From contig DVEF01000102.1 of NCBI GenBank assembly GCA_015295805.1, positions 1-34,936 on the forward strand: a stretch of DNA of 34,936 nt, written 5' to 3'. The first letter of the stretch is position 1. Each line of letters starts with the position of its first letter. The position numbers and the translations under genes are program-made. The stretch comes from Geminocystis sp. M7585_C2015_104. GTDB lineage: Bacteria; Cyanobacteriota; Cyanobacteriia; Cyanobacteriales; Cyanobacteriaceae. Positions 8,384-30,863 of this stretch are shown here, piece after piece. The notes beneath the pieces are model-generated. The model had not been told where the DNA came from, searched no databases, and was given only the letters and a program-made list of their open reading frames with translations.

Positions 8384-11300
8384 ATGAATGGGGGTGAGGG
8401 TTATACATATCCCATAAGTCAGATAATATCAACACAGTTTATACCCCTAAATGGGAATAATACCCCGGGAGAAGCAGGAGTAGGACTTGTGGCTAACCCC
8501 TATCCTGGGGGAGGGGGGGGAAATAATTATCTTCCGGAATACCCACAGGCTATTGACTTTAACCAGGCAAATATCTCCCCCTATAGTTATCAAGACGGAT
8601 GGGGTGGCATTGAGACAAGCTATGAAATTCTAGAAGAGGGAAATACCATAAAACTATCTGGAAATGCCTGGAAAAAAATCTATTACCCATACAATGTAAC
8701 TGAGGACACACTATTGAGTTTTGAATACCGCAGTCAAGGGGTAGGAGAAATACAAGGGATAGGAATAGAAACTGATGACATATACTCCCATTGGGATTTA
8801 AAATTTAGACTAGGGGGGACTGAAAGTGTCACTGGACTAGGAAACTTCAAATATGACTACACCCACCATCAGGGGAATGACTGGCAAAAATTTACTATCC
8901 CACTAGGTAATTACTATTCGGGAAACTTTAACTATCTAGTGTTATTCAATGACAATGATAATTCCGATTCCAACTCTGAGAGTTATTTTCGCAATCTGAG
9001 GATATATGAAAAGGATACCACTGCTCCTCAAGCAAGTATTGAAATACCTGTCTCTGTTTTTAGCGACGGGGAGTATCGTTTTTTTGTAACCTACACAGAC
9101 AACTTTTCCCTAAACCTAGCCACCATAGACAACTATGACATTAGAGTGAGGGGGGAAAACGGCTTTGAACAATTAGCTAAAGTAGTTGAAATAAACAGCA
9201 ACAATGGCAGCAATGTTAAAGTCACCTACTCCATCTCCGCCACAGATGGGAAATGGGATTTCAATGACAATGGCGTCTATCACTTTAGCCTAGAAAACAA
9301 TCAAATAGGCGATACCAGCGGCAATTTCCTCCAAGGCTTTACCCTAGCCAGTGTATATGTCAACAGTGTCATAGATTTCAACAAGGCTGATATCACTTCC
9401 TTTGCCACCAGGGATGTCTCCAAAATCCATCAGGTAGACGACGACGGCAAAACCATCACCCTGAGGGGGAAAACTTGGAAAGCCATTCCCCTCAATTATA
9501 CCGTTATTGACACCCCCAATCGCACCACCATCCTCGAGTTTGAATTCAACAGTAATCAAAGTGGATGGCTAAAGGGCATAGGTATTTCGACTACCGGTAA
9601 CTCCCTCACAAACAAGGATGTGATATTCAATCTCTTTGGTAACGCCACCCGCAACAATTATATACCCATAGAGTATCAGGGGGAAGGCTGGCAAAAGATT
9701 ACAATAGCTCTAGGTAAACATTACCAGGGTACCTTCAATTCCCTAGTACTCATCAATGACGATGGCAGCACCAAGGATATTAACTCATTTAGTGCCTTTC
9801 GAAATGTAAAGATTTATGACAGTTGGAACACGGCAACCCCAGTACAGCTGAACAATGTGGTAGTCAGCAATGTCAAAGCCAAGCAAAACCTGAGAAGAAT
9901 AAACTTCAATGACTTTGACATCACCGGTTATGACCCAAAAGAAGACCTGGTAGGCAGTTATACCATCATAGATGGTGGCAAAGGATTAACCCTGACCGGC
10001 AACAGCTGGAAAAAAATTGAATTACCTCGTACTATTACACCAGATACGGTACTCACCTTAGAATTCTACAGCAGCCAGGTGGGGGAAATACATGCCATAG
10101 CCTTTGACAATGACAATAGTCTCGCCAACGGGGTTGCCTTCGCCTATCAGATAGCAGGGAGTGAATACTGGCGAGAGGGCAGCCGCGGAAAACTGTATGC
10201 TAGAGGATATCAAGAGGGGTGGCGAAGCTATTATATCAGACTGGGGGACTACCTGACCGGAAATGTTCAATACCTCATCCTAATCAATGACGATGACACC
10301 AATGCCAGTGCCAACAGTTACTTTCGCAATCTGGAAATATACGAAGAAGGACAACTGGTCAACGGTGACGCCAATCATCGCTTTACCGTCAGCTATGCTT
10401 CCCCCAATGGCGTCAACCCAGCCACTTTGGACCACAATGACATCCGCGTCACTGGGCCTAACAATTTCAACCAATTAGCTAAACTCCTAGGATATAGGGT
10501 GAGAGAAGATGGCTCAGTATGGGCCACCTACCAAATAAGTCCCCCCACCTCCCTGTGGAACCCAAGCCACAACGGCCAGTATACCATAACCCTGGAACCC
10601 GGTCAAGTCTTTGCCAACAATGGCCAGAGTCTGCCCGCCAAAACCCTAGGCACTTTCCAAGTCAATGTAAGCCAGTTACCCCTAGAAGGAGTCACCCCCA
10701 TTTGGCATTCTGGATTTGAAAAAGGATATGCCATAGGCGAATGGCACTCTTATAACCAAAACTATTCTGACACAGGGGAGCCACTGCCGGGTAGAGGTTC
10801 CATGTGGACAGTCTTGTCAGCACAACAGGCTGCTGCCGAGGGGGTAGCTGTGGTGGAGGGCGATCGCATTTACAAAGGCCTGATTTATAACACCGCCCCA
10901 ACAAACCATCGTCCCTATCCGGTCATCCACGTGGACGAAGTATCTAAAAACTATGTAAATGTCCCAGTGAAGCCCATTGTCAACAGATTTTATGTGTGGG
11001 CTGATTGGAACCCGGATGTAACACGCAACGACTGGCAGCACCTGGTTACCTATGCCAATAAAGACAACTGGGGGACGGTTTTGGTTTTGGTGATTAACTC
11101 CCACAACCGAGTACAACTAAACCACCTACAAGCGCCTCTAGGCGGCTATGGAGGGGGCAATGGTTGGGAATACGTCAACCCCGCCACCATGCCCCTAAGA
11201 CAATGGGTACGTTTCACCACCTATCTAGACTATCAACAGGGGGTTCTATATGTATGGATGAATGGCCGACTCATTATCAGAGCAAGGGGGGGAAGACTGT

Positions 11301-11470
11301 TGGACGGACCCTCAGATTATCTGCTAAGGGCTCACTGGGGACTCTACGCCGGCGGCTACACTGATAATGGGGTGCAATACAACGACTCCATCCAACTCTG
11401 GACTCTAGACCAACCCCTGTCTGACCCCACCATGGAACCCCTCTCCCCCTACGATGGTCCCGGCTGGTAA
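8384..11470 (+). CDS. Large three-repeat beta-sandwich protein, probable polysaccharide-binding or lyase-like
   Basis: 1028 residues. Three copies of a domain of about 150 residues begin near residues 56, 330 and 510. They share a pattern of IDFN..DI, SW/TWKKI, T.L.FE..S...GEI.GIG and SYFRNL.IYE, with the flavour of a carbohydrate-binding beta-sandwich. Two further Ig-like domains carry NLATIDNYDIRV and NPATLDHNDIRVTGP signatures and lie before the second repeat and after the third. The C-terminal roughly 270 residues (from WHSGFEKG) look like a concanavalin-type jelly roll of the polysaccharide-lyase/LamG kind. No classical signal peptide, RTX repeats or membrane segment is visible, so the export route is unclear. 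The Gly-rich N-terminus contains an eight-G run (8513-8520). Location beside polysaccharide genes suggests that it binds or modifies the exopolymer. That function is inferred; enzymatic activity is not shown. Confidence 0.7.
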   Translation: MNGGEGYTYPISQIISTQFIPLNGNNTPGEAGVGLVANPYPGGGGGNNYLPEYPQAIDFNQANISPYSYQDGWGGIETSYEILEEGNTIKLSGNAWKKIYYPYNVTEDTLLSFEYRSQGVGEIQGIGIETDDIYSHWDLKFRLGGTESVTGLGNFKYDYTHHQGNDWQKFTIPLGNYYSGNFNYLVLFNDNDNSDSNSESYFRNLRIYEKDTTAPQASIEIPVSVFSDGEYRFFVTYTDNFSLNLATIDNYDIRVRGENGFEQLAKVVEINSNNGSNVKVTYSISATDGKWDFNDNGVYHFSLENNQIGDTSGNFLQGFTLASVYVNSVIDFNKADITSFATRDVSKIHQVDDDGKTITLRGKTWKAIPLNYTVIDTPNRTTILEFEFNSNQSGWLKGIGISTTGNSLTNKDVIFNLFGNATRNNYIPIEYQGEGWQKITIALGKHYQGTFNSLVLINDDGSTKDINSFSAFRNVKIYDSWNTATPVQLNNVVVSNVKAKQNLRRINFNDFDITGYDPKEDLVGSYTIIDGGKGLTLTGNSWKKIELPRTITPDTVLTLEFYSSQVGEIHAIAFDNDNSLANGVAFAYQIAGSEYWREGSRGKLYARGYQEGWRSYYIRLGDYLTGNVQYLILINDDDTNASANSYFRNLEIYEEGQLVNGDANHRFTVSYASPNGVNPATLDHNDIRVTGPNNFNQLAKLLGYRVREDGSVWATYQISPPTSLWNPSHNGQYTITLEPGQVFANNGQSLPAKTLGTFQVNVSQLPLEGVTPIWHSGFEKGYAIGEWHSYNQNYSDTGEPLPGRGSMWTVLSAQQAAAEGVAVVEGDRIYKGLIYNTAPTNHRPYPVIHVDEVSKNYVNVPVKPIVNRFYVWADWNPDVTRNDWQHLVTYANKDNWGTVLVLVINSHNRVQLNHLQAPLGGYGGGNGWEYVNPATMPLRQWVRFTTYLDYQQGVLYVWMNGRLIIRARGGRLLDGPSDYLLRAHWGLYAGGYTDNGVQYNDSIQLWTLDQPLSDPTMEPLSPYDGPGW

Positions 11471-18042: not shown

Positions 18043-18780
18043 CTACGAGGGTTGACTTTTAAGATAGTTGAGAAATTCCATTAACTCCTCGTCGGTGAGC
18101 AAATGACGGGATTTTTTACCATAGGTCTCCAGTAAGTATTTTTTACCGTCCTCTTGGGTCCAACCCAGACGTTTCATCTCCCGCGTAGTCTCCTCAATAA
18201 TCTGACTAAAGTCAATGGTTTCACTGGCCTCCTCCTCCCCTCCCCCTCCTACCGCCGGCTGTTGCCTCGAAAGAGAAGTCTCAAAACTACTAGTACCCCC
18301 CTGGTTGGACAACGAGGATTTAGAAACACCAGAGTATAACGTGGTAGTAGCCCGCTGTACGGAGGCTCCACCAGAGGGAGGAGACGCAATGGTACTATTT
18401 TCTCGCTGTGGGGAAGAAATCCCACTAGGGGGGGAGGATATAACAGGGGTTGTCACCCCAACAAGGGCCGGGGCATCATCGTAGGTAGGTCTATCAGCCG
18501 CAGAAGAAGTGGGCCGGGGCGGGGTCTTTTCCTTTTCGACCTCAGTAGAGGTTTTTGTAGTATGGTTATAATTGGGAAATCTTTCCTCAAGGTGTTGCAA
18601 TTGGAAGTAAAAGTCTATAACCCTTTGGCGGGCTCTATCTTCCGCATCCTCCACCGTGTGAGCCGCGGCAAGGGCAGTTGTGATAGTATTTTGTTGAGCA
18701 CAAAGGGACGCCCTTACGATATAATTGCCACCGGTGACAGTAATCAGCTCGGTAGTGAGGGCAAAGCGAGTTTCTGTCAT
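18043..18780 (-). CDS. Conserved hypothetical protein with disordered middle and helical C-terminal module
   Basis: 245 residues. The N-terminal roughly 70 residues look folded (TRFALTTELITV... and a helix with DAEDRARQRVIDFYFQL). A Pro/Ser/Thr/Gly-rich linker of about 100 residues follows, then a C-terminal module of about 55 residues containing MKRLGWTQEDGKKYLLETYGK and LLTDEELMEFLNYL. I have the impression of similar C-terminal modules in other cyanobacterial proteins but cannot name the family. I use the ATG at 18780: a TATAAT (-10) at 18821-18816 on this strand would place the transcript start near 18809, leaving the in-frame TTG at 18816 inside the promoter. A nucleic-acid or scaffold role is only a guess. 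Confidence 0.65.
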   Translation of the reverse strand: MTETRFALTTELITVTGGNYIVRASLCAQQNTITTALAAAHTVEDAEDRARQRVIDFYFQLQHLEERFPNYNHTTKTSTEVEKEKTPPRPTSSAADRPTYDDAPALVGVTTPVISSPPSGISSPQRENSTIASPPSGGASVQRATTTLYSGVSKSSLSNQGGTSSFETSLSRQQPAVGGGGEEEASETIDFSQIIEETTREMKRLGWTQEDGKKYLLETYGKKSRHLLTDEELMEFLNYLKSQPS

Positions 18781-18815
18781 AGAGAACAATGCATCCGGAC
18801 AAGAGTTTGAGTACA

Positions 18816-18821
18816 ATTATA
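18816..18821 (-). promoter_or_regulatory. Minus-strand -10 box TATAAT
   Basis: A perfect TATAAT about 36 nt upstream of the ATG at 18780. No good -35 lies 17 nt further upstream, so it may depend on an activator. Confidence 0.35.
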
Positions 18822-19171: not shown

Positions 19172-21463
19172 ATGGAGTTCTCTATCGCTACAATTCTTTC
19201 CCTTTTAAGCCCAGATAAACTAGTATCCGGAAAACAGATTGAGAAAAAATTGGGCTGTGAAGACGAAAAAGACATCGAAAAACTACAAATAGCCCTAGAC
19301 GTGTTAGAAAGAATTGGTGTGCTCACCAAAGAGTTTGGCAAGTACCGCCGGTGTATAGAAAAGGACGTGGTGGAGGCCAAACTACGCTGTTCCAGTAAGG
19401 GCTTCTGCTTCGCCATTCAGGATGACGAGGATGCCGATGACATTTACATCCGGGAAACCCATCTTAGCAATGCCTGGAATGGCGATCGGGTTCTGGTGAA
19501 AATAATAAAAGAGGGCACCCGTCGTCGCTCTCCAGAAGGAGAAGTCAAGGTCATCCTGGAAAGGGCAAACCCCTCCGTTTTAGCCCGGGTTGTTCAAGAC
19601 GAAAATGGGGATTACATGGCAGTGCCCCTAGACGACCGTCTCCTCTTTGAAATCAAGCTGAAAGAAAACGGAATCCCATTAGCGGAAACCGTTGACCATC
19701 TAGTGCATGTAGGAATATTGCGCTACCCTATAGGACAAAAACCTCCTATTGGCAAAGTGCTAAGAGTTTTAGGTAGTGACGCCGCCGCCGCCGCCGACAT
19801 CGATATTGTCTCCTCAAAGCACGACTTGCCCCATGAATTCCCAGAAAAAGTCCTCGCCCAAGCCAGTTCCCTCAGCTGTGAAATCCCCCCACAGGAGTGG
19901 GAAAAACGCATAGACTTAAGGGAGCTCCTCACTATTACCATTGAACCGGATGTGATGACAGAACAAGACCTGTTCCGGGAAACCGCCCTCTCCCTGGAAA
20001 AGGCAGAAGACAATAGGTGGATTTTAGGGGTTCATATTGCCGATGTGGCTCACTTTGTGCCGGAGGATACCCCCCTGGATAGAGAGGCCAGAAAAAGGGG
20101 CACCGCTGTCCATTTGGGCCACAAAATTATCCCCTTGTTCCCCAAACAAGTCCAAGAGTGTGCCTCTCTTATCCCCAATCAAGAGCGTCTGGCTATTTCT
20201 GTCCTAGTCACTCTGGACGACAATGGAGAGGTGCTGGGGTATCACATCAAACCTAGCATCGTCAGGGTGGACCACCAATTGACCTACAAACAAGTACAAA
20301 CCATGATCAGCACCAACAGTGCCAAACCCGGCCTGGAGTCCACTCTGGAATTATTGAATCATCTTTTGTTTGAAATTAGCCCCACAGTCAAGGCCAGACG
20401 TCTTCAAAAAGGGGGTTTTGATATTCTTCTGGACGACGTCACCTCCTATTTTAAAGACGAGGGGAGAATTGGTGCCATCGCCTCTTATCCCAGTCTCCCC
20501 ATCTTGTCTCTCCTCACCGAGTTAATGGTATTGGTGGGAAGGCTAGTAGCGGAACACTTCCAGCATTTACAAATCCCCGCCATATATTGTAGTCAGGGCA
20601 AACCAGATTGGGATGAATTGGAGGATCTACTGAAACTAGTGGCCAATCTCGGACTCAAATTCCAACTGGAATCCGAGGATGAAATCTACCCCATGGACTA
20701 CTACAGACTAACGCAGGCCTTCAGCAATTCGGAACAGGAGAAGATTTTACAACATGAGAAGATATTACACCACCTACTGCTCAACTCCCTCAAGTCCAAT
20801 AAATACACCCTACACCCGGCACCCCATTTTGGTCTAGCCCTGGATAGTTATACCCACTGCCTGTCCCCCGGACAACGGTATGTGGATTTAGTCAATCAAC
20901 GTATTCTGAAAAAGGTCTTTGAACAGGGAAGAGATCGTCGCACCACTCGTGTAAAAGAAGGGGTTGACTTGACCAGCAGTAGTTGCCATGGACAAATCCA
21001 CTGGAAGGTATTACCTCCAGAAACCGAGTCCGAACTGGAGGCCGACTTACACTCCATTATCAGTCACCTCAATGAGAGGGAGAAAATAGCAGAGGATGCA
21101 GAAAGGGATTTAGCCGGCCTTAAGAAGGCAGAAAAAATGAAGGACTGTACCGGCAAAGTATTTCGTGGTTTAATTACCGGAGTACAATCCTATGGCTTTT
21201 TCGTCCAAATAATAGAAGAGGAGTTGCATCGGGAAAAGCCCCTACTGGTAGAGGGACTAGTCCATGTTAGTTCCCTTAAGGATGATTGGTATGAGTATCT
21301 GCCAAAATACTCCTGTTTAGTGGGCAGAAGAAATCGTCTGGTTTACCGTCTCGGCGACGAGGTAGAAGTGGAGGTGAAAAGTGTAGACTACTACCGTCAA
21401 CAAATAGATCTAGTAGTTGTCCGTGGTGGAACTGTTGTCTCAGAAGACCATTTTGAAGAATAG
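19172..21463 (+). CDS. RNase II/RNase R-family protein with atypical catalytic motifs
   Basis: 763 residues with the family order of cold-shock-like N-domains, an RNB domain (about 245-590) and a C-terminal S1 domain (about 660-745, GKVFRGLITGVQSYGFFVQI). Many RNB motifs are intact: VHIADVAHFV, PLDREARKRGTAV, IIPLFPKQ, LTELMVLVGRLVAE. The acidic cluster is not. Canonical TID-x5-DxDDA is here TIEPDVMTEQDLFRETALS (256-274). The conserved SPIR(R/K)(Y/F), whose Arg is essential in E. coli RNase II, is SPGQRY (565-570). Activity is therefore doubtful or altered. An AAGGA site 8 nt before the ATG supports the start. Cyanobacteria have RNase II/R homologues, including Zam, linked to acetazolamide resistance; which of these this is, I cannot say. 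Confidence 0.85.
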   Translation: MEFSIATILSLLSPDKLVSGKQIEKKLGCEDEKDIEKLQIALDVLERIGVLTKEFGKYRRCIEKDVVEAKLRCSSKGFCFAIQDDEDADDIYIRETHLSNAWNGDRVLVKIIKEGTRRRSPEGEVKVILERANPSVLARVVQDENGDYMAVPLDDRLLFEIKLKENGIPLAETVDHLVHVGILRYPIGQKPPIGKVLRVLGSDAAAAADIDIVSSKHDLPHEFPEKVLAQASSLSCEIPPQEWEKRIDLRELLTITIEPDVMTEQDLFRETALSLEKAEDNRWILGVHIADVAHFVPEDTPLDREARKRGTAVHLGHKIIPLFPKQVQECASLIPNQERLAISVLVTLDDNGEVLGYHIKPSIVRVDHQLTYKQVQTMISTNSAKPGLESTLELLNHLLFEISPTVKARRLQKGGFDILLDDVTSYFKDEGRIGAIASYPSLPILSLLTELMVLVGRLVAEHFQHLQIPAIYCSQGKPDWDELEDLLKLVANLGLKFQLESEDEIYPMDYYRLTQAFSNSEQEKILQHEKILHHLLLNSLKSNKYTLHPAPHFGLALDSYTHCLSPGQRYVDLVNQRILKKVFEQGRDRRTTRVKEGVDLTSSSCHGQIHWKVLPPETESELEADLHSIISHLNEREKIAEDAERDLAGLKKAEKMKDCTGKVFRGLITGVQSYGFFVQIIEEELHREKPLLVEGLVHVSSLKDDWYEYLPKYSCLVGRRNRLVYRLGDEVEVEVKSVDYYRQQIDLVVVRGGTVVSEDHFEE

Positions 21464-21497: not shown

Positions 21498-21540
21498 AAA
21501 ATTGGGGCTGAATATCCACATCAGGGGGACTGCAATCAAC

Positions 21541-22281
21541 ATGTTGAAGAGACTCTTACTGTTTTTGTCCTTGCTAATCCTTCTAAGTGGTTGTGTTCGT
21601 TATGATGTGGGTATTCGGTTTCCCCAAGCCAATGGGGGAGAAATAGTCCAACATGTGAAATTGGGGCAACAGCTAGTCAATTTCAGTGGTGAGGAAGTCA
21701 ATGAGTGGCTGAAAAGCATAGAACAAAGGGCCTCTTCATTAAACGGGAGGAGTAAACGTCTTAACGACTACGAATTGGTGGTGGCCATTCCCTTTTACAA
21801 TGGCAAGGAGCTAGTAGAAAAATTCAATGAGTTTTTTGCCTCCTCCCCCGAGCCACAAAAAATCCCTAAGAAAAACCCCGACTATTTCAACCTATCTGCC
21901 AGGATGAACCTGGAGCAAAACAACTGGCTTTTTCTAGAGAGAAACGTCTTAGAATTTGAGGCAGATTTAACACCTCTAGCTCTGGTTTCCAAAGAAGGCA
22001 ACATCATCATTTCCGGAGAAGATTTAATGGATTTGAGGTTCAAGTTGAATATCCCCCTGTTAGTAAAAATAGCAGGCGAGGGAGTCAAATGGCAAAAAAC
22101 AGGAAACCAAGAGTACGAAATAAGACTGTCTCCAGGGAAAATAAACAGGATAAAAGCAGTTTTTTGGGTGCCTAATTATGTAGGGTTGGGCACTATGGCA
22201 ATCATAATTTTCGTGAGCTTAGGGTACTATTTAAAATACAAAAAAATGCCCCTCCTAGAGGGGACAAGAGAAGGACTTTAA
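21541..22281 (+). CDS. DUF3153-type cyanobacterial lipoprotein
   Basis: 246 residues. The N-terminus [18 protein letters not shown] is a lipoprotein signal peptide with lipobox LLSGC, so the mature protein should start at a lipidated Cys18. A central beta-rich domain begins [24 protein letters not shown]. One C-terminal membrane helix (about 217-235) is followed by basic residues. This layout fits the DUF3153 family of cyanobacteria and plastids; its function is unknown. A GGGGGA stretch lies about 12 nt before the ATG. Its TAA stop overlaps the glmM stop on the other strand through a shared TTAA. Confidence 0.8.
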
Positions 22282-26787: not shown

Positions 26788-27525
26788 TTAACTATGTCTG
26801 TCAGGGAAGAGAGTAAACAGCAACTTGTTAATATAAACCTTCCCCACCACACCCCTCTTGTTGGTGGGAGGGGATGCATTCTGGTCGGAGGAGTTGTGGC
26901 CCTCTAGAGGGGCGTTACCTAGCGGGGTGGGGGTTTCATTCCCCTCCTCCTCTTGGGGGCGAGATTCCTCTTGGGGGCGAGATGGAGTTTGTTCCCCTTT
27001 CTCTTCCCAAGGGTCCTCCTGTAAGGCCTCTGTATTTTCCCCCTCATCCTTTTTTGCCACCGCCACTATTTCCTCTCTTCCCCCCGTTGTAGCCTCTGTG
27101 GCTTGTCCAGTCGCCCCTGCCACTGGGGAGGCTGAGGATGGAATACTGGGAACTAGGGAATGGGAATCGGGTTTACGGGAGGTATCCCCTATTATTGTCC
27201 CAGCAGAAATAACCGCATTGGCCGGCACGTCGGCCCGGTATACGGTCACCAAAGCCCCGAGGGACGCCTGAGCTCCTATAACACATGCTCCCACAATCAG
27301 ACTACCAGCACCGAGAATGGCATTGGACTCCACCACTACATCCCCCCCTATAGCAGTAATAATCGTCCCCATGCCCAAACAGGCCCCACTTTTGATAACA
27401 ATACGACTGCCCGGGGTTGCATTTAAGATGACACCAGGGGCAATTATTGCCGTGGGGTCTATGGTAACATCTCCTACTACCTTTGTGTTAGAAAGGCAGG
27501 GGACTTGAAGAACAGGTATAGACAT
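26788..27525 (-). CDS. ccmN: Carboxysome assembly protein CcmN
   Basis: 245 residues. The N-terminal half is a left-handed beta-helix of hexapeptide repeats (VVGDVTIDPTAIIAPGVIL and similar), related to the gamma-carbonic-anhydrase domain of CcmM, which it binds. A long Pro/Glu/Ser-rich linker leads to the C-terminal encapsulation peptide (VVGKVYINKLLFTLFPDR), an amphipathic helix that attaches the cargo to CcmK2 facets. I use the ATG at 27525 (MSIPVLQVP); an in-frame GTG at 27567 would add 14 unlikely residues. It is the last gene of the ccm operon, 149 nt after ccmM, with a hairpin in the gap. Confidence 0.92.
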   Translation of the reverse strand: MSIPVLQVPCLSNTKVVGDVTIDPTAIIAPGVILNATPGSRIVIKSGACLGMGTIITAIGGDVVVESNAILGAGSLIVGACVIGAQASLGALVTVYRADVPANAVISAGTIIGDTSRKPDSHSLVPSIPSSASPVAGATGQATEATTGGREEIVAVAKKDEGENTEALQEDPWEEKGEQTPSRPQEESRPQEEEGNETPTPLGNAPLEGHNSSDQNASPPTNKRGVVGKVYINKLLFTLFPDRHS

Positions 27526-27626
27526 CTCCCTACTGGTAAAGGAAACGGCGCAAGGGGGGTAATCCACACAGTAGCCCTAACTCTAATGTTGTATGCTAAT
27601 CAAGTAATTCAAAAGGCCAAACAGAG

Positions 27627-27650
27627 GGGCGTACAGGGATAGATACGCCC
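27627..27650. repeat. GGGCGTA/TACGCCC hairpin between ccmM and ccmN
   Basis: Perfect 7-bp arms (27627-27633 and 27644-27650) with a 10-nt loop, identical in arms to the gltA terminator at 17468. On the operon strand it is followed by CTCTGTTT rather than a clean T-run, so it may only partly terminate and lower ccmN output. It resembles short GGGGCG-type palindromes scattered in cyanobacterial genomes. Confidence 0.5.
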
Positions 27651-27674
27651 AACTCCGCAAAAAGAGAGATTAAA

Positions 27675-28973
27675 TTACGGTCTTTGGATGATGGTTTCTA
27701 GGACACGACGTTTGGCGGTGGGCTCAATGCCAATCAGACGTACATACTCCCCAGAGTGTTCTTTCAGACAGGCTTCCAGGGCTCGCAGCACCTCGGACTC
27801 ATTACGACTTTGGATAGGGGCACAGGATTGCCAAGAGTTGGTTTTAAAGCGACGAACCGTGGCATGCTCAGTCCCGATTTGATAGCCTTGAGCCAGGAGG
27901 GAACGTACTTGGGACACCACTTCTGGGGACAAACTGGTGGTGGCAACAGCCCCGTTTACACTCTTGCCATTGCCGTTCACGTTTGTAGATTTACTATTTA
28001 CAGAAGTGCTACTACCACCGGGGACACCGTCAGGGCGTTGGATAATCATCTCCAATACCCGGCGTTTAGCGGTGGGGTCAATGCCAATCAGGCGGACATA
28101 TTCCCCATCATGTTCCTTAAGGCAGGCTTCCAAAGCGGCTATGACTTCCCGCTCATTCTTGCTCTGAATAGGGGCACAGGATTGCCAGGAATTAGTCTTA
28201 AAGCGACGGACTGTGGCATGCTCGGTGCCAATTTGATAGCCTTGAGCCAGAAGGGAACGCACCTGGGCGATGGCCTCCTGGCTGAGGCGGCCGCCAGTGG
28301 TAGTAGTCACCGAGGCGCCATTGTGGGAGGAGGTGGGAGCGGTGTAGTTATTTTTGTTTATCTCTGGACTACCGGAGCCGGGGCGTTGGATGATGGTTTC
28401 AGAAACACGACGTTTGCTGGCGGGATCGACCCCCACAATTTGGACATACTCCCCTTCAAACTGACGAAGATAGCCTTCAATGGCACTAATAGCCTCTTGA
28501 ACGGACTTGGTGTTGATACTGCCCGCGGTGAGCCAGGATTTGGTCTTAAAGCGACGGGGGTTGGCGTGTTCTACCCCAATTTGATAACCCCCTTGGATTA
28601 GAGCCCGCACCTCGTCAGTCCAACTGGCATTACCGGCCCCACTGGTAGAAGCAGTATTGCTACTGTTAACAGTCACCCGAGTGGAGGGGGTGGTAGAAAC
28701 AGAGGGGCTTTCCCCGGGGCGTTGGATAATGACCTCAGCAACACGGCGTTTGCCATTGGGGTCAATGCCAATGAGGCGAACATACTCCCCGGCATATTCC
28801 CGCAGCAGGGATTCCAACTCTCTGAGAATGGCTGCTTCCCCAGTAGCCCGCAGGGGTGCAGTCAACCAGGACTTGGTTTTAAAACGACGGGGGTTGGCAT
28901 GTTCCACCCCGATTTGGTACCCCTGTCTTAAAAGGGAACGCACCTGGCCAGCAATATCTGTACTTACAGTCAT
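27675..28973 (-). CDS. ccmM: Short CcmM isoform from an internal start
   Basis: In frame within ccmM, Met226 (28973) is preceded by GGGGGAG at the ideal distance for a ribosome-binding site, just after the carbonic-anhydrase domain. The product (432 residues) would hold only the four SSUL modules. CcmM is known to be made in a full-length and a short form from one mRNA in Synechococcus, and both are needed for Rubisco condensation. The internal site here is what the sequence shows; its use in this organism is inferred. Confidence 0.75.
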
Positions 28974-29648
28974 AATCTCCCCCGAATCATTACTGAGTTG
29001 CGTGTTACTTTCGCCCAGGCGGGCACTTTCTGCCCTCACGGCATTTATACAGGCGGCATTTTCGATGCACTGATAGCCCATGGCAAGGGCCTCATTAATT
29101 TGAACCACGTGGGCGGCGAACTCCCTATCTTCTGGTTGGACATCCGGGAGGCGATCCGCCTGTTGCTGGGTGGTGATAATGGAGCCCGAGGGGACATACT
29201 TACCAGGGGGGATTTCCACATCCTGGATCAACACGTGCATCATTACGATGCAGCCATGCCCCACCCTGGCATTGAAAACAGTAGAACGGAACCCTATAAA
29301 ACAATTATCCCCCACGTAAGCGGGGCCATGGATGAGAGCTAGGTGGGTTATACAGGTATTACGACCAATCCAGACAGAATACTCCTTCCCGTCGTCCCCC
29401 TTGACTCGTCCCTTTTCCAAACCGTGGATGACAACGCCGTCTTGAATGTTGCTGTTGTCGCCGATGTAGAAGGGAGTCCCCTCATCGGCCCGAATAGAAG
29501 TGCCGGGCGCAATGAGGACATTGGCCCCCACCCTCACATCCCCTATGAGGTTGGAAAAGGAGTGCACGTAGGCGGTCTCATGGATAGTCGGTTCCGCCAG
29601 GTTTCTCGACCAAGGGGTTGGGGGAGCTGCCATTATGGGAAAGCTCAC
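27675..29648 (-). CDS. ccmM: Carboxysome scaffold protein CcmM (long form)
   Basis: 657 residues. The N-terminal gamma-carbonic-anhydrase trimer domain (about 18-200) has the zinc ligands His75 (VVIHG), His102 and His107 (THLALIHG), and the Cys194/Cys200 pair. Four SSUL modules follow at about 233-312, 343-424, 455-539 and 573-657, each with YQIG.EHA..RRFKT.SW and ending in IIQRP. They bind Rubisco and condense it into the carboxysome core. Modules 3 and 4 carry a Cys pair (491/509 and 609/627) that could form a redox-sensitive disulfide; modules 1 and 2 have none. The GTG at 29648 has GGAGG 6 nt upstream; an ATG at 29633 is the alternative. An internal start at Met226 makes the short form. 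Confidence 0.97.
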
Positions 29649-29746
29649 GGCAAACCTCCGCTATAAGTAACTGTTAACAGGCACTGGAAACTATTTTTTC
29701 TCCTTCTTTTATAACCGGTTATATGGGAGCTACCAATAGGTTATGG

Positions 29747-30052
29747 TCAATATGGTCTTTCAGCCTCTTTCTTGCTGTAAATTAGTTCACCCCCCACAGT
29801 GACAGTGTCAATAATCCCCACCACCATGGCATCTACTGGCCGCTCATCTCCTATTTCCCTGCGGGCGGAACTGCCCCTGGTCACCAACACCCACTCATTT
29901 AACCCTGCCCCCACGGTATCCCCAGCCACCTCGTACTGGGGCAGGGGTTTCCCGTTGGCGTCGAGAAACTGTACCAGGAGCAGCTTTATCCCTGTCAGGG
30001 CCTTTGACTTGTGGTTACTTACAACTGTACCACAAACTCTAGCAATTTGCAT
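29747..30052 (-). CDS. ccmL: Carboxysome vertex protein CcmL
   Basis: 101 residues of the EutN/CcmL family: MQIARVCGTVVSNHKSKALTGIKLLL, YEVAGDTVGAGLNEWVLVTRGSSAR, VDAMVVGIIDTV. CcmL forms pentamers that close the twelve vertices of the icosahedral shell. I use the ATG at 30052; the frame remains open to 30121, but the extra 23 residues are not family-like. It follows ccmK1 by 106 nt. The start has no clear Shine-Dalgarno. Confidence 0.95.
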   Translation of the reverse strand: MQIARVCGTVVSNHKSKALTGIKLLLVQFLDANGKPLPQYEVAGDTVGAGLNEWVLVTRGSSARREIGDERPVDAMVVGIIDTVTVGGELIYSKKEAERPY

Positions 30053-30158
30053 CAGTATGTTTGTGTTTAAAAGTTTACGGGATAGGCAACCCCCGCAAAT
30101 GGGGGGCTGTGCAACCCACATCCGGAAAACGTCAACCTAGGGGGGTTGATTTACCCGG

Positions 30159-30497
30159 CTAGGGGCGGCTCAGGGGGCGAGGATTAACACTTTCTCTGAA
30201 CTGTTCTACCTCTTCGGTGTAACGGATTGGCAGGACGTACTCGAGGTTTTCATGGGGACGGGCGATGATGTGGTGGGACAAAACCTGTCCTCCTTTTACC
30301 CTTTTGGCATTTTCAATGCCAGCTGCCACGGATGCTTGTACTTCGGATACATCGCCCCTGACGATTACAGTGACGCGGCCACTGCCTATTTTTTCATAAC
30401 CCACTAAGGTAACCCGGGCTGCCTTTACCATGGCGTCTGCCGCTTCTACCACCGCTGGAAAGCCCAGGGTTTCCACCATTCCAACTGCGATTGACAT
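30159..30497 (-). CDS. ccmK1: Carboxysome shell hexamer protein CcmK1
   Basis: 112 residues with one BMC domain: [32 protein letters not shown], the pore segment [11 protein letters not shown], and [16 protein letters not shown]. It forms hexagonal facet tiles. It is nearly identical to the ccmK2 product for the first 60 residues and has a longer C-terminal tail ([11 protein letters not shown]), which distinguishes CcmK1 from CcmK2. The gene lies 54 nt downstream of ccmK2. Confidence 0.95.
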
Positions 30498-30551
30498 AGG
30501 CTTTTTTCTTCCCCTTTTTAGTATTACTTTCCTATATTCTTACTTGTATAC

Positions 30552-30863
30552 TTAATAGTTACGGAACTGTTCTACCTCTTCAGTGTAACGAATTGGCAGG
30601 ACATACTCGAGGTTCTCGTGGGGGCGGGCGATTATATGAGTGGACAGCACTTCCCCGCCGGGAACTCTGTTAGCCGATTCAATCCCCGCGGCCACAGAGG
30701 CTTGTACTTCCGATACATCGCCTCTTACTATTACTGTTACACGGCCACTGCCGATTTTTTCATACCCCACCAGGGTCACACGGGCGGCTTTCACCATGGC
30801 GTCTGCTGCCTCTACCACGGCTGGAAAGCCCAGGGTTTCAATCATTCCTACTGCGATTGGCAT
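30552..30863 (-). CDS. ccmK2: Carboxysome shell hexamer protein CcmK2
   Basis: 103 residues, one BMC domain with the KIGSGRVTV pore loop. It is the major facet hexamer and the docking partner for the CcmN encapsulation peptide. It is the first gene of the ccmK2-K1-L-M-N operon. AGGAAGG precedes the ATG at a suitable distance. Confidence 0.95.

Follow-up and report, generated by a model that had tools for sequence, protein, structure and literature searches.

A cyanobacterial Zam ortholog in Geminocystis with a degraded RNase R-type active site, probably maintained for its OB domains

We analyzed a 34,936-nucleotide stretch of DNA from Geminocystis sp. M7585_C2015_104 (positions 1 to 34,936 of contig DVEF01000102.1), which we call the window. 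It contains a gene that a sequence-only reading had described as an RNase II/R homologue with a degraded active site. Pfam domains of the encoded protein (the window protein) fall in the order CSD1-CSD2-RNB-S1, as in Zam of cyanobacteria. The features of the locus are collected in Table 1, together with another RNB gene of the same genome.

Table 1. Features of the zam locus, with window coordinates unless a locus is named
Feature	Coordinates	Strand	Remarks
slr1353-family neighbour	18043..18816	-	divergent, upstream of zam
zam coding sequence	19172..21463	+	ATG start, 763 aa plus stop; intact frame
CSD1 / OB_RNB domain, aa 70-126	19379..19549	+	PF08206, E 5.8e-20
Cys73 codon, redox cysteine of Zam	19388..19390	+	position as published for PCC 7002
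Cys79 codon, redox cysteine of Zam	19406..19408	+	position as published for PCC 7002
CSD2, aa 151-224	19622..19843	+	PF17876, E 1.4e-20
RNB domain, aa 246-583	19907..20920	+	PF00773, E 2.8e-84; profile covered at positions 1-324 of 326
Degraded acidic cluster TIEPDVMTEQDLFRETA, aa 256-272	19937..19987	+	sites E258, F268, E270, T271
SPGQRY, aa 565-570	20864..20881	+	Q568 where catalytic Arg expected
S1 domain, aa 660-747	21149..21412	+	PF00575, E 1e-07
DUF3153 neighbour	21502..22281	+	begins 38 bases downstream of zam
Third RNB protein, 750 aa	L035:1813-4065		contig C101 of the genome; intact site TIDDSNTMDRDDG, TSPLRRF

Genes like the two neighbors recur near zam. In fetched flanks of differing lengths, a slr1353-like gene was found in at least 53 of 80 relatives and at least 21 of 29 further loci, and a DUF3153-like gene in at least 34 of the 80 and at least 13 of the 29. 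These neighbors add nothing to the Zam case. Farther along, positions 26788 to 30863 hold what we take to be carboxysome-type genes (two closely similar CcmK-like open reading frames plus CcmL-, CcmM-, and CcmN-like ones). They lie about 5 to 9 kb from zam, and zam mutants resist a carbonic anhydrase inhibitor. Elsewhere in the window, positions 8384 to 11470 encode a 1028-aa protein that, by eye, apparently consists in part of three copies of a module of about 150 residues.

The window gene is an ortholog of cyanobacterial Zam. Its product was 58.1% identical over 756 columns (851 bits) to Zam of Picosynechococcus sp. PCC 7117, which we take to be a relative of PCC 7002, and 58.7% identical over 766 columns (883 bits) to Zam of the Epithemia turgida endosymbiont. 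Both queries chose the window protein as their top match in its genome. The paralogs in that genome scored only 91 and 79 bits against the PCC 7117 protein and no more than 92 bits against either query. When the search was reversed, the best place of the window protein in genomes G058 and G147 was the same zam gene, so that these are reciprocal best hits. A full-length ortholog, 88% identical, was present in a second genome of the genus Geminocystis. We kept 80 of 564 relatives; 79 of them carry titles that we take to be cyanobacterial, in some cases by the genus name, and the other is a metagenome-assembled genome (MAG) titled Candidatus Gracilibacteria (L180).

Among E. coli enzymes the window protein is nearer to RNase R (260 bits) than to RNase II (73.6 bits). 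Published work likewise groups Zam with RNase R (PMC9145284). It scored 469.3 bits on the NCBIfam RNase R model TIGR02063, which does not reach the curated cut-off of 597.85. The CSD1 cysteines are at positions 73 and 79 in both the window protein and the PCC 7117 Zam, the numbering published for PCC 7002 Zam (PMC9145284).

Structure prediction had been suggested by the sequence-only reading as a check, and it returned an RNase R fold. The AlphaFold2 model of the window protein (36 sequences) had a pLDDT of 89.4 and a pTM of 0.85, and its top PDB matches were RNase R structures, 8cdu, 5xgu, and 7did among them, with Z scores of 40 to 44 (Foldseek, VIA-align). Yeast Ssd1, solved as a pseudonuclease, reached a Z score of 36.0 over 617 residues, and active Dis3-type enzymes fell between RNase R and Ssd1. 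The overall fold is therefore predicted to be RNase R-like, although fold alone tells nothing about activity either way. The window protein has the fold and domain order of E. coli RNase R (Rnr), and RNase R provides the closest solved structures. However, the four Asp residues and the Arg of that enzyme are not retained.

The letters of the acidic cluster and of SPGQRY are exactly as the sequence-only reading had quoted them. The acidic stretch is TIEPDVMTEQDLFRETALSLE (aa 256 to 276). We aligned 138 Zam sequences, including the window protein, with E. coli RNase R and RNase II. In the best register, the canonical D-x-D-D-A aligns to F268-R269-E270-T271-A272, and the four metal sites are E258, F268, E270, and T271, with no Asp and two Glu. 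Relatives read IENAF or IETAF at this anchor, or IDDAL where Asp is retained. The earlier reading had instead taken EQDL as the D-x-D-D equivalent, which would place the sites at E258, E264, D266, and L267. We rejected that register because the Asp-keeping relatives read IDDAL at E270-T271-A272. E270-T271 was also paired with Asp-Asp in a phmmer alignment to the 8cdu RNase R chain, which has two 2-residue insertions in the acidic cluster. The main claim, that the metal site is degraded, holds in any case, since the alignment gave no intact four-carboxylate site in the window protein under either register. The other claim, that the conserved Arg of SPIR(R/K) is replaced, was borne out by Q568 at the position of RNase II Arg500. 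Both hallmarks of RNase R, the four metal-binding Asp residues and the catalytic Arg, are thus absent. Elsewhere in the site, His314 occupies the position of RNase II Y253, whereas the equivalents of Y313 and E542 are retained (Y372 and E644). The positions of F358 and E390 also differ, but both vary among the active enzymes that we aligned. Loss of catalysis is well supported as a prediction from these residues.

The genome has three RNB genes: zam, an RNase II-type paralog (L036, contig C3), and L035 (contig C101). The RNase II paralog shares the RNB domain and the genome with Zam, but it has different N-terminal domains (PF23163, PF25255, and PF23161) and an intact D-E-D-D/R site. That site was intact in 30/30 loci (this genome and 29 relatives). 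Therefore, the loss is specific to Zam. Because all seven sampled genomes of the window's family read E.E(N/T)/Q, and because the paralog is uniformly intact, the degraded site is not a chance event or an artefact. The Zam identity rests on the agreement of the reciprocal best hits, the C73/C79 positions, the RNase R fold, and the intact RNase II paralog.

The third RNB protein, L035, has two dsRNA-binding stretches (PF00035), and at E 0.01 Pfam reported neither a cold-shock nor an S1 domain in it. Relatives of near full length, 48 to 86% identical, occurred in all 8 other genomes sampled from the window's family. The matches listed for the remaining 139 genomes of 148 were weaker, and none exceeded 36% identity. 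By its sequence, it appears to be an RNB-dsRBD protein of narrow spread.

We surveyed the Zam site in 255 genomes (138, then 58 further, then 59 further). The first set used 138 of the 147 genomes with a match; G217, whose place was not listed, and 8 genomes outside the class were dropped. Loci L390 to L396 are second loci of genomes already counted. None of the 255 genomes had a four-acid Zam site; one of them, L384, is a fragment that ends ahead of the site and is counted among the rows without acids. Acids occupied three of the four positions in 62 genomes, two in 82, one in 65, and none in 46. The position of RNase R D278 (RNase II D207) was never Asp in the 255 genomes (L384 ends before it). 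It was Glu in 7 rows, all from f24 and f27, two families with a changed motif length and an unsure register. Four acids were likewise found in none of the 80 kept relatives. Our survey left out four genomes of the class, from a batch of 23 (G533 and G539, f71; G514, f70; and G486, f57; loci L386 to L389), in which no Zam was found and the only match was an RNase II with its DEDD/R intact. One of these assemblies, G533, consists of one contig at 99% completeness. Some cyanobacteria may therefore be without Zam, if these assemblies are complete.

Several families had a fixed site form, written here as the four metal positions followed by the Arg position. D.DD/R occurred in 61 genomes of three families (f18, 30/30; f19, 1/1; and f26, 30/31, the other being H.DD/R), and K.DD/R, with Lys at the first metal Asp, in 27 of the 28 genomes of f22 (L341 to L365, L106, and L107; the other was E.DD/R), but the rows of f18, f26, and f22 were mostly best matches to three-Asp queries, so that their uniformity is partly chosen. 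The window's family read E.EN/Q or E.ET/Q in 7/7 genomes. Family f6, presumably the Nostoc group, read x.EN/R in 31/31, and a named Nostoc Zam among the 80 kept relatives reads AVEN/R. Most or all rows of f25 had Leu at the third position, and f23 and f28 had site deletions. The remaining families were less uniform, as was the window's order taken as a whole, in which ten different residues occupied the D272 position in 83 genomes. Among the 80 kept relatives, the three-Asp form was found in Oculatella, Kaiparowitsia, and one MAG, and KSDD in Pantanalinema, a Lyngbya, and a Leptolyngbya.

In a set of 60 Zam loci, D272, D280, D281, and the Arg were all invariant, as were 82 of the 338 RNB columns overall. 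Four given columns would all be invariant by chance with a probability of about 0.0035, in a sample whose rows are related and whose columns are not independent. A quick LG tree nested the DD lineages (SH-aLRT 88), whereas a more careful mixture tree had them adjoining the outgroup (88/91), whose branch is very long. The two trees disagree on rooting, and the ancestral status of the three-Asp form varies with the choice of tree. Earlier work had reported that most Zam proteins lack four acids and that a canonical site is present in none (PMC9145284). We found no mention of lineage-fixed forms, or of D278 as a common lesion, in our literature searches or in the portions of that paper's text available here, its figure alignment aside. 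The lineage-fixed series and the D278 position that is never Asp are a detail added beyond those portions.

Conservation was uneven along the protein. Among the 138 Zam sequences, the mean fraction of the commonest residue was 0.82 in CSD1, 0.72 in S1, and 0.48 in RNB, which makes CSD1 the most conserved domain and RNB the least. The view of the sequence-only reading that RNB is otherwise well preserved applies to its fold. We also measured selection as the pooled, Jukes-Cantor-corrected nonsynonymous/synonymous ratio over 20 ortholog pairs, some of which share a sequence. The ratio was 0.022 for CSD1 (aa 67 to 130), 0.033 for S1 (aa 656 to 750), 0.053 for CSD2, 0.079 for the N terminus, 0.088 for RNB without the site, and 0.176 for the site (aa 250 to 280), with 0.078 for the whole gene. 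Individual pairs scatter, and in some the site is no faster than the remaining RNB domain. The gene is kept above all for its OB domains, an emphasis also seen in the published Zam work (PMC9145284). Strong selection on CSD1 and S1, with the least constraint at the former site, argues for a maintained pseudo-nuclease and not a decaying gene.

The cysteine pair of CSD1 was nearly universal. Both C73 and C79 were present in 250/255 genomes. L129 and L375 (f23) lack both, reading RFSRGSFW and RYSRGSYW, and are also missing the acidic cluster. In L085 and L377 residue 79 is Gly, and the frame used for L130 begins past CSD1, so that its cysteines were not covered. Zam of PCC 7002 shows redox-dependent gel mobility, its C73 and C79 are redox active and required in vivo, and either C73S or C79S reproduces the phenotype of a zam deletion (PMC9145284). 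In both PCC 6803 and PCC 7002, that deletion causes acetazolamide resistance and altered pigmentation, and redox-controlled binding of RNase E by Zam was proposed (PMC9145284). Our literature search for work from 2022 onward linking Zam to RNase E and redox gave only that paper. The genomes without the pair limit the redox model.

These results match what is known of Zam. A 2022 study described the site as degenerate, and it is presumably dead; the purified protein showed no nuclease activity and no binding of RNA, a result qualified by its aggregation (PMC9145284). Zam of Synechocystis PCC 6803 (sll1910) and of Synechococcus PCC 7002 (A1543) is orthologous to the window protein, with the same domains and CSD1 cysteines; its RNB site is degraded in a like manner, and it is a published non-nuclease (PMC9145284). 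Apart from its lineage's site form, E.ET/Q, there is nothing notable to set the window protein apart from known Zam. It is an ordinary member; the sequence-only finding holds, and published work on Zam already accounts for it.

We consider it very probable that the window protein is a Zam that lacks useful exonuclease activity and is retained for its OB domains. A pseudo-exoribonuclease, as suggested by the sequence-only reading, which had itself named Zam proteins for comparison, is the reading best supported by the loss of the site and the selection pattern. Zam would be an RNase R-like protein whose RNB domain is retained as a scaffold and could no longer hold metals or position the scissile phosphate. 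The selected function would reside in the OB domains, with CSD1 and its C73/C79 pair as a redox switch. We infer from knowledge of the family that CSD1 and S1 may bind RNA; they would bind RNA and/or RNase E, and Zam would thereby tune RNA turnover, and with it pigment and photosystem levels, to the photosynthetic redox state. For the redox and RNase E step, where control of RNase E is a proposal of others that we adopt, the chances seem about even. The published trial in which Zam did not bind RNA, with its aggregation, counts against this explanation (PMC9145284), as does a cysteine pair that is not universal.

A report of activity also counts against it. According to a review, Anabaena Alr1240 degrades unstructured RNA and enhances RNase E (PMC10989914), and the Anabaena protein of the study cited for Alr1240 was identified as Zam (PMC9145284). 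This conflicts with a non-nuclease Zam; contamination of the preparation and real residual activity are both possible. The window protein might still be an active exoribonuclease with an altered metal geometry, using E258, E264/D266, and E270. Acidic residues persist in its loop, two Glu remain at acidic positions, Y372 and E644 are kept, and the RNase II paralogs normally carry Glu at the second of the four sites (30/30). However, F268, T271, and Q568 eliminate further catalytic positions, the Y253 position is His, four acids are kept in no register, and of the parts of the gene that we measured, the site is under the least constraint. E/F/E/T with Gln for Arg makes a different geometry unlikely, and we regard continued catalysis as improbable. 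Our literature search found no useful reports on RNase II Asn mutants beyond PMC3293843, and, being aimed at Asn mutants only, it found no Asp-to-Glu tests at the site.

It is equally improbable, in our judgment, that the RNB domain serves as a non-cutting holder of RNA 3' ends, threading RNA and shielding the ends from RNase II and PNPase. RNase II with Asp209 changed to Asn loses activity and retains RNA binding (PMC3293843), and the window protein retains the RNB fold, S1, and the Y313 equivalent. However, RNB is the least conserved domain, Y253, which sets the end product of RNase II (PMC3293843), is replaced by His, and in yeast Ssd1 the channel is blocked and RNA binding has shifted to the surface (PMC8934651). 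That zam is a decaying gene or an assembly artefact is contradicted by the present data and can practically be dismissed: the site is lost and its length varies between lineages, but the 763-codon frame is intact, the second Geminocystis genome has its full-length ortholog, and the overall ratio is low.

A maintained pseudo-exoribonuclease has a parallel in fungi. Yeast Ssd1 and the fungal RNase II pseudonucleases belong to the RNase II family and, like Zam, have lost the site and conserved their cold-shock domains (PMC8934651 and PMC8097288). The site was lost at least four times among them. Unlike Zam, they descend from Dis3L2 and are known RNA binders, and the abstracts of these papers mention no redox cysteine pair (PMC8934651 and PMC8097288). 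More tentatively, and at rather long chances, Zam proteins might range by degrees from impaired nucleases to pure adaptors. Such a series would parallel Ssd1 in bacteria, and in it the site was not simply abandoned. The lesion at the D278 position would then be common to all Zam, with later losses fixed by lineage. The three-Asp group might still bind a metal or RNA 3' ends, perhaps with slow cleavage, and the Lys group would have a positive charge in place of a metal.

If true, such a series might account for the conflicting activity reports on different Zam proteins. The lineage-fixed forms, if real, would provide naturally occurring site variants with which to test the importance of each carboxylate, and they point to the subgroup in which residual activity should be sought. 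Relatives without the cysteine pair (L129 and L375; also L085 and L377) are a natural test of the redox model. A "ribonuclease R" label on Zam would mislead about its activity. Across this wide sample, cyanobacteria of many families carry a maintained pseudo-RNase, in which the best-conserved domain is a putative RNA-binding one that holds a redox cysteine pair.
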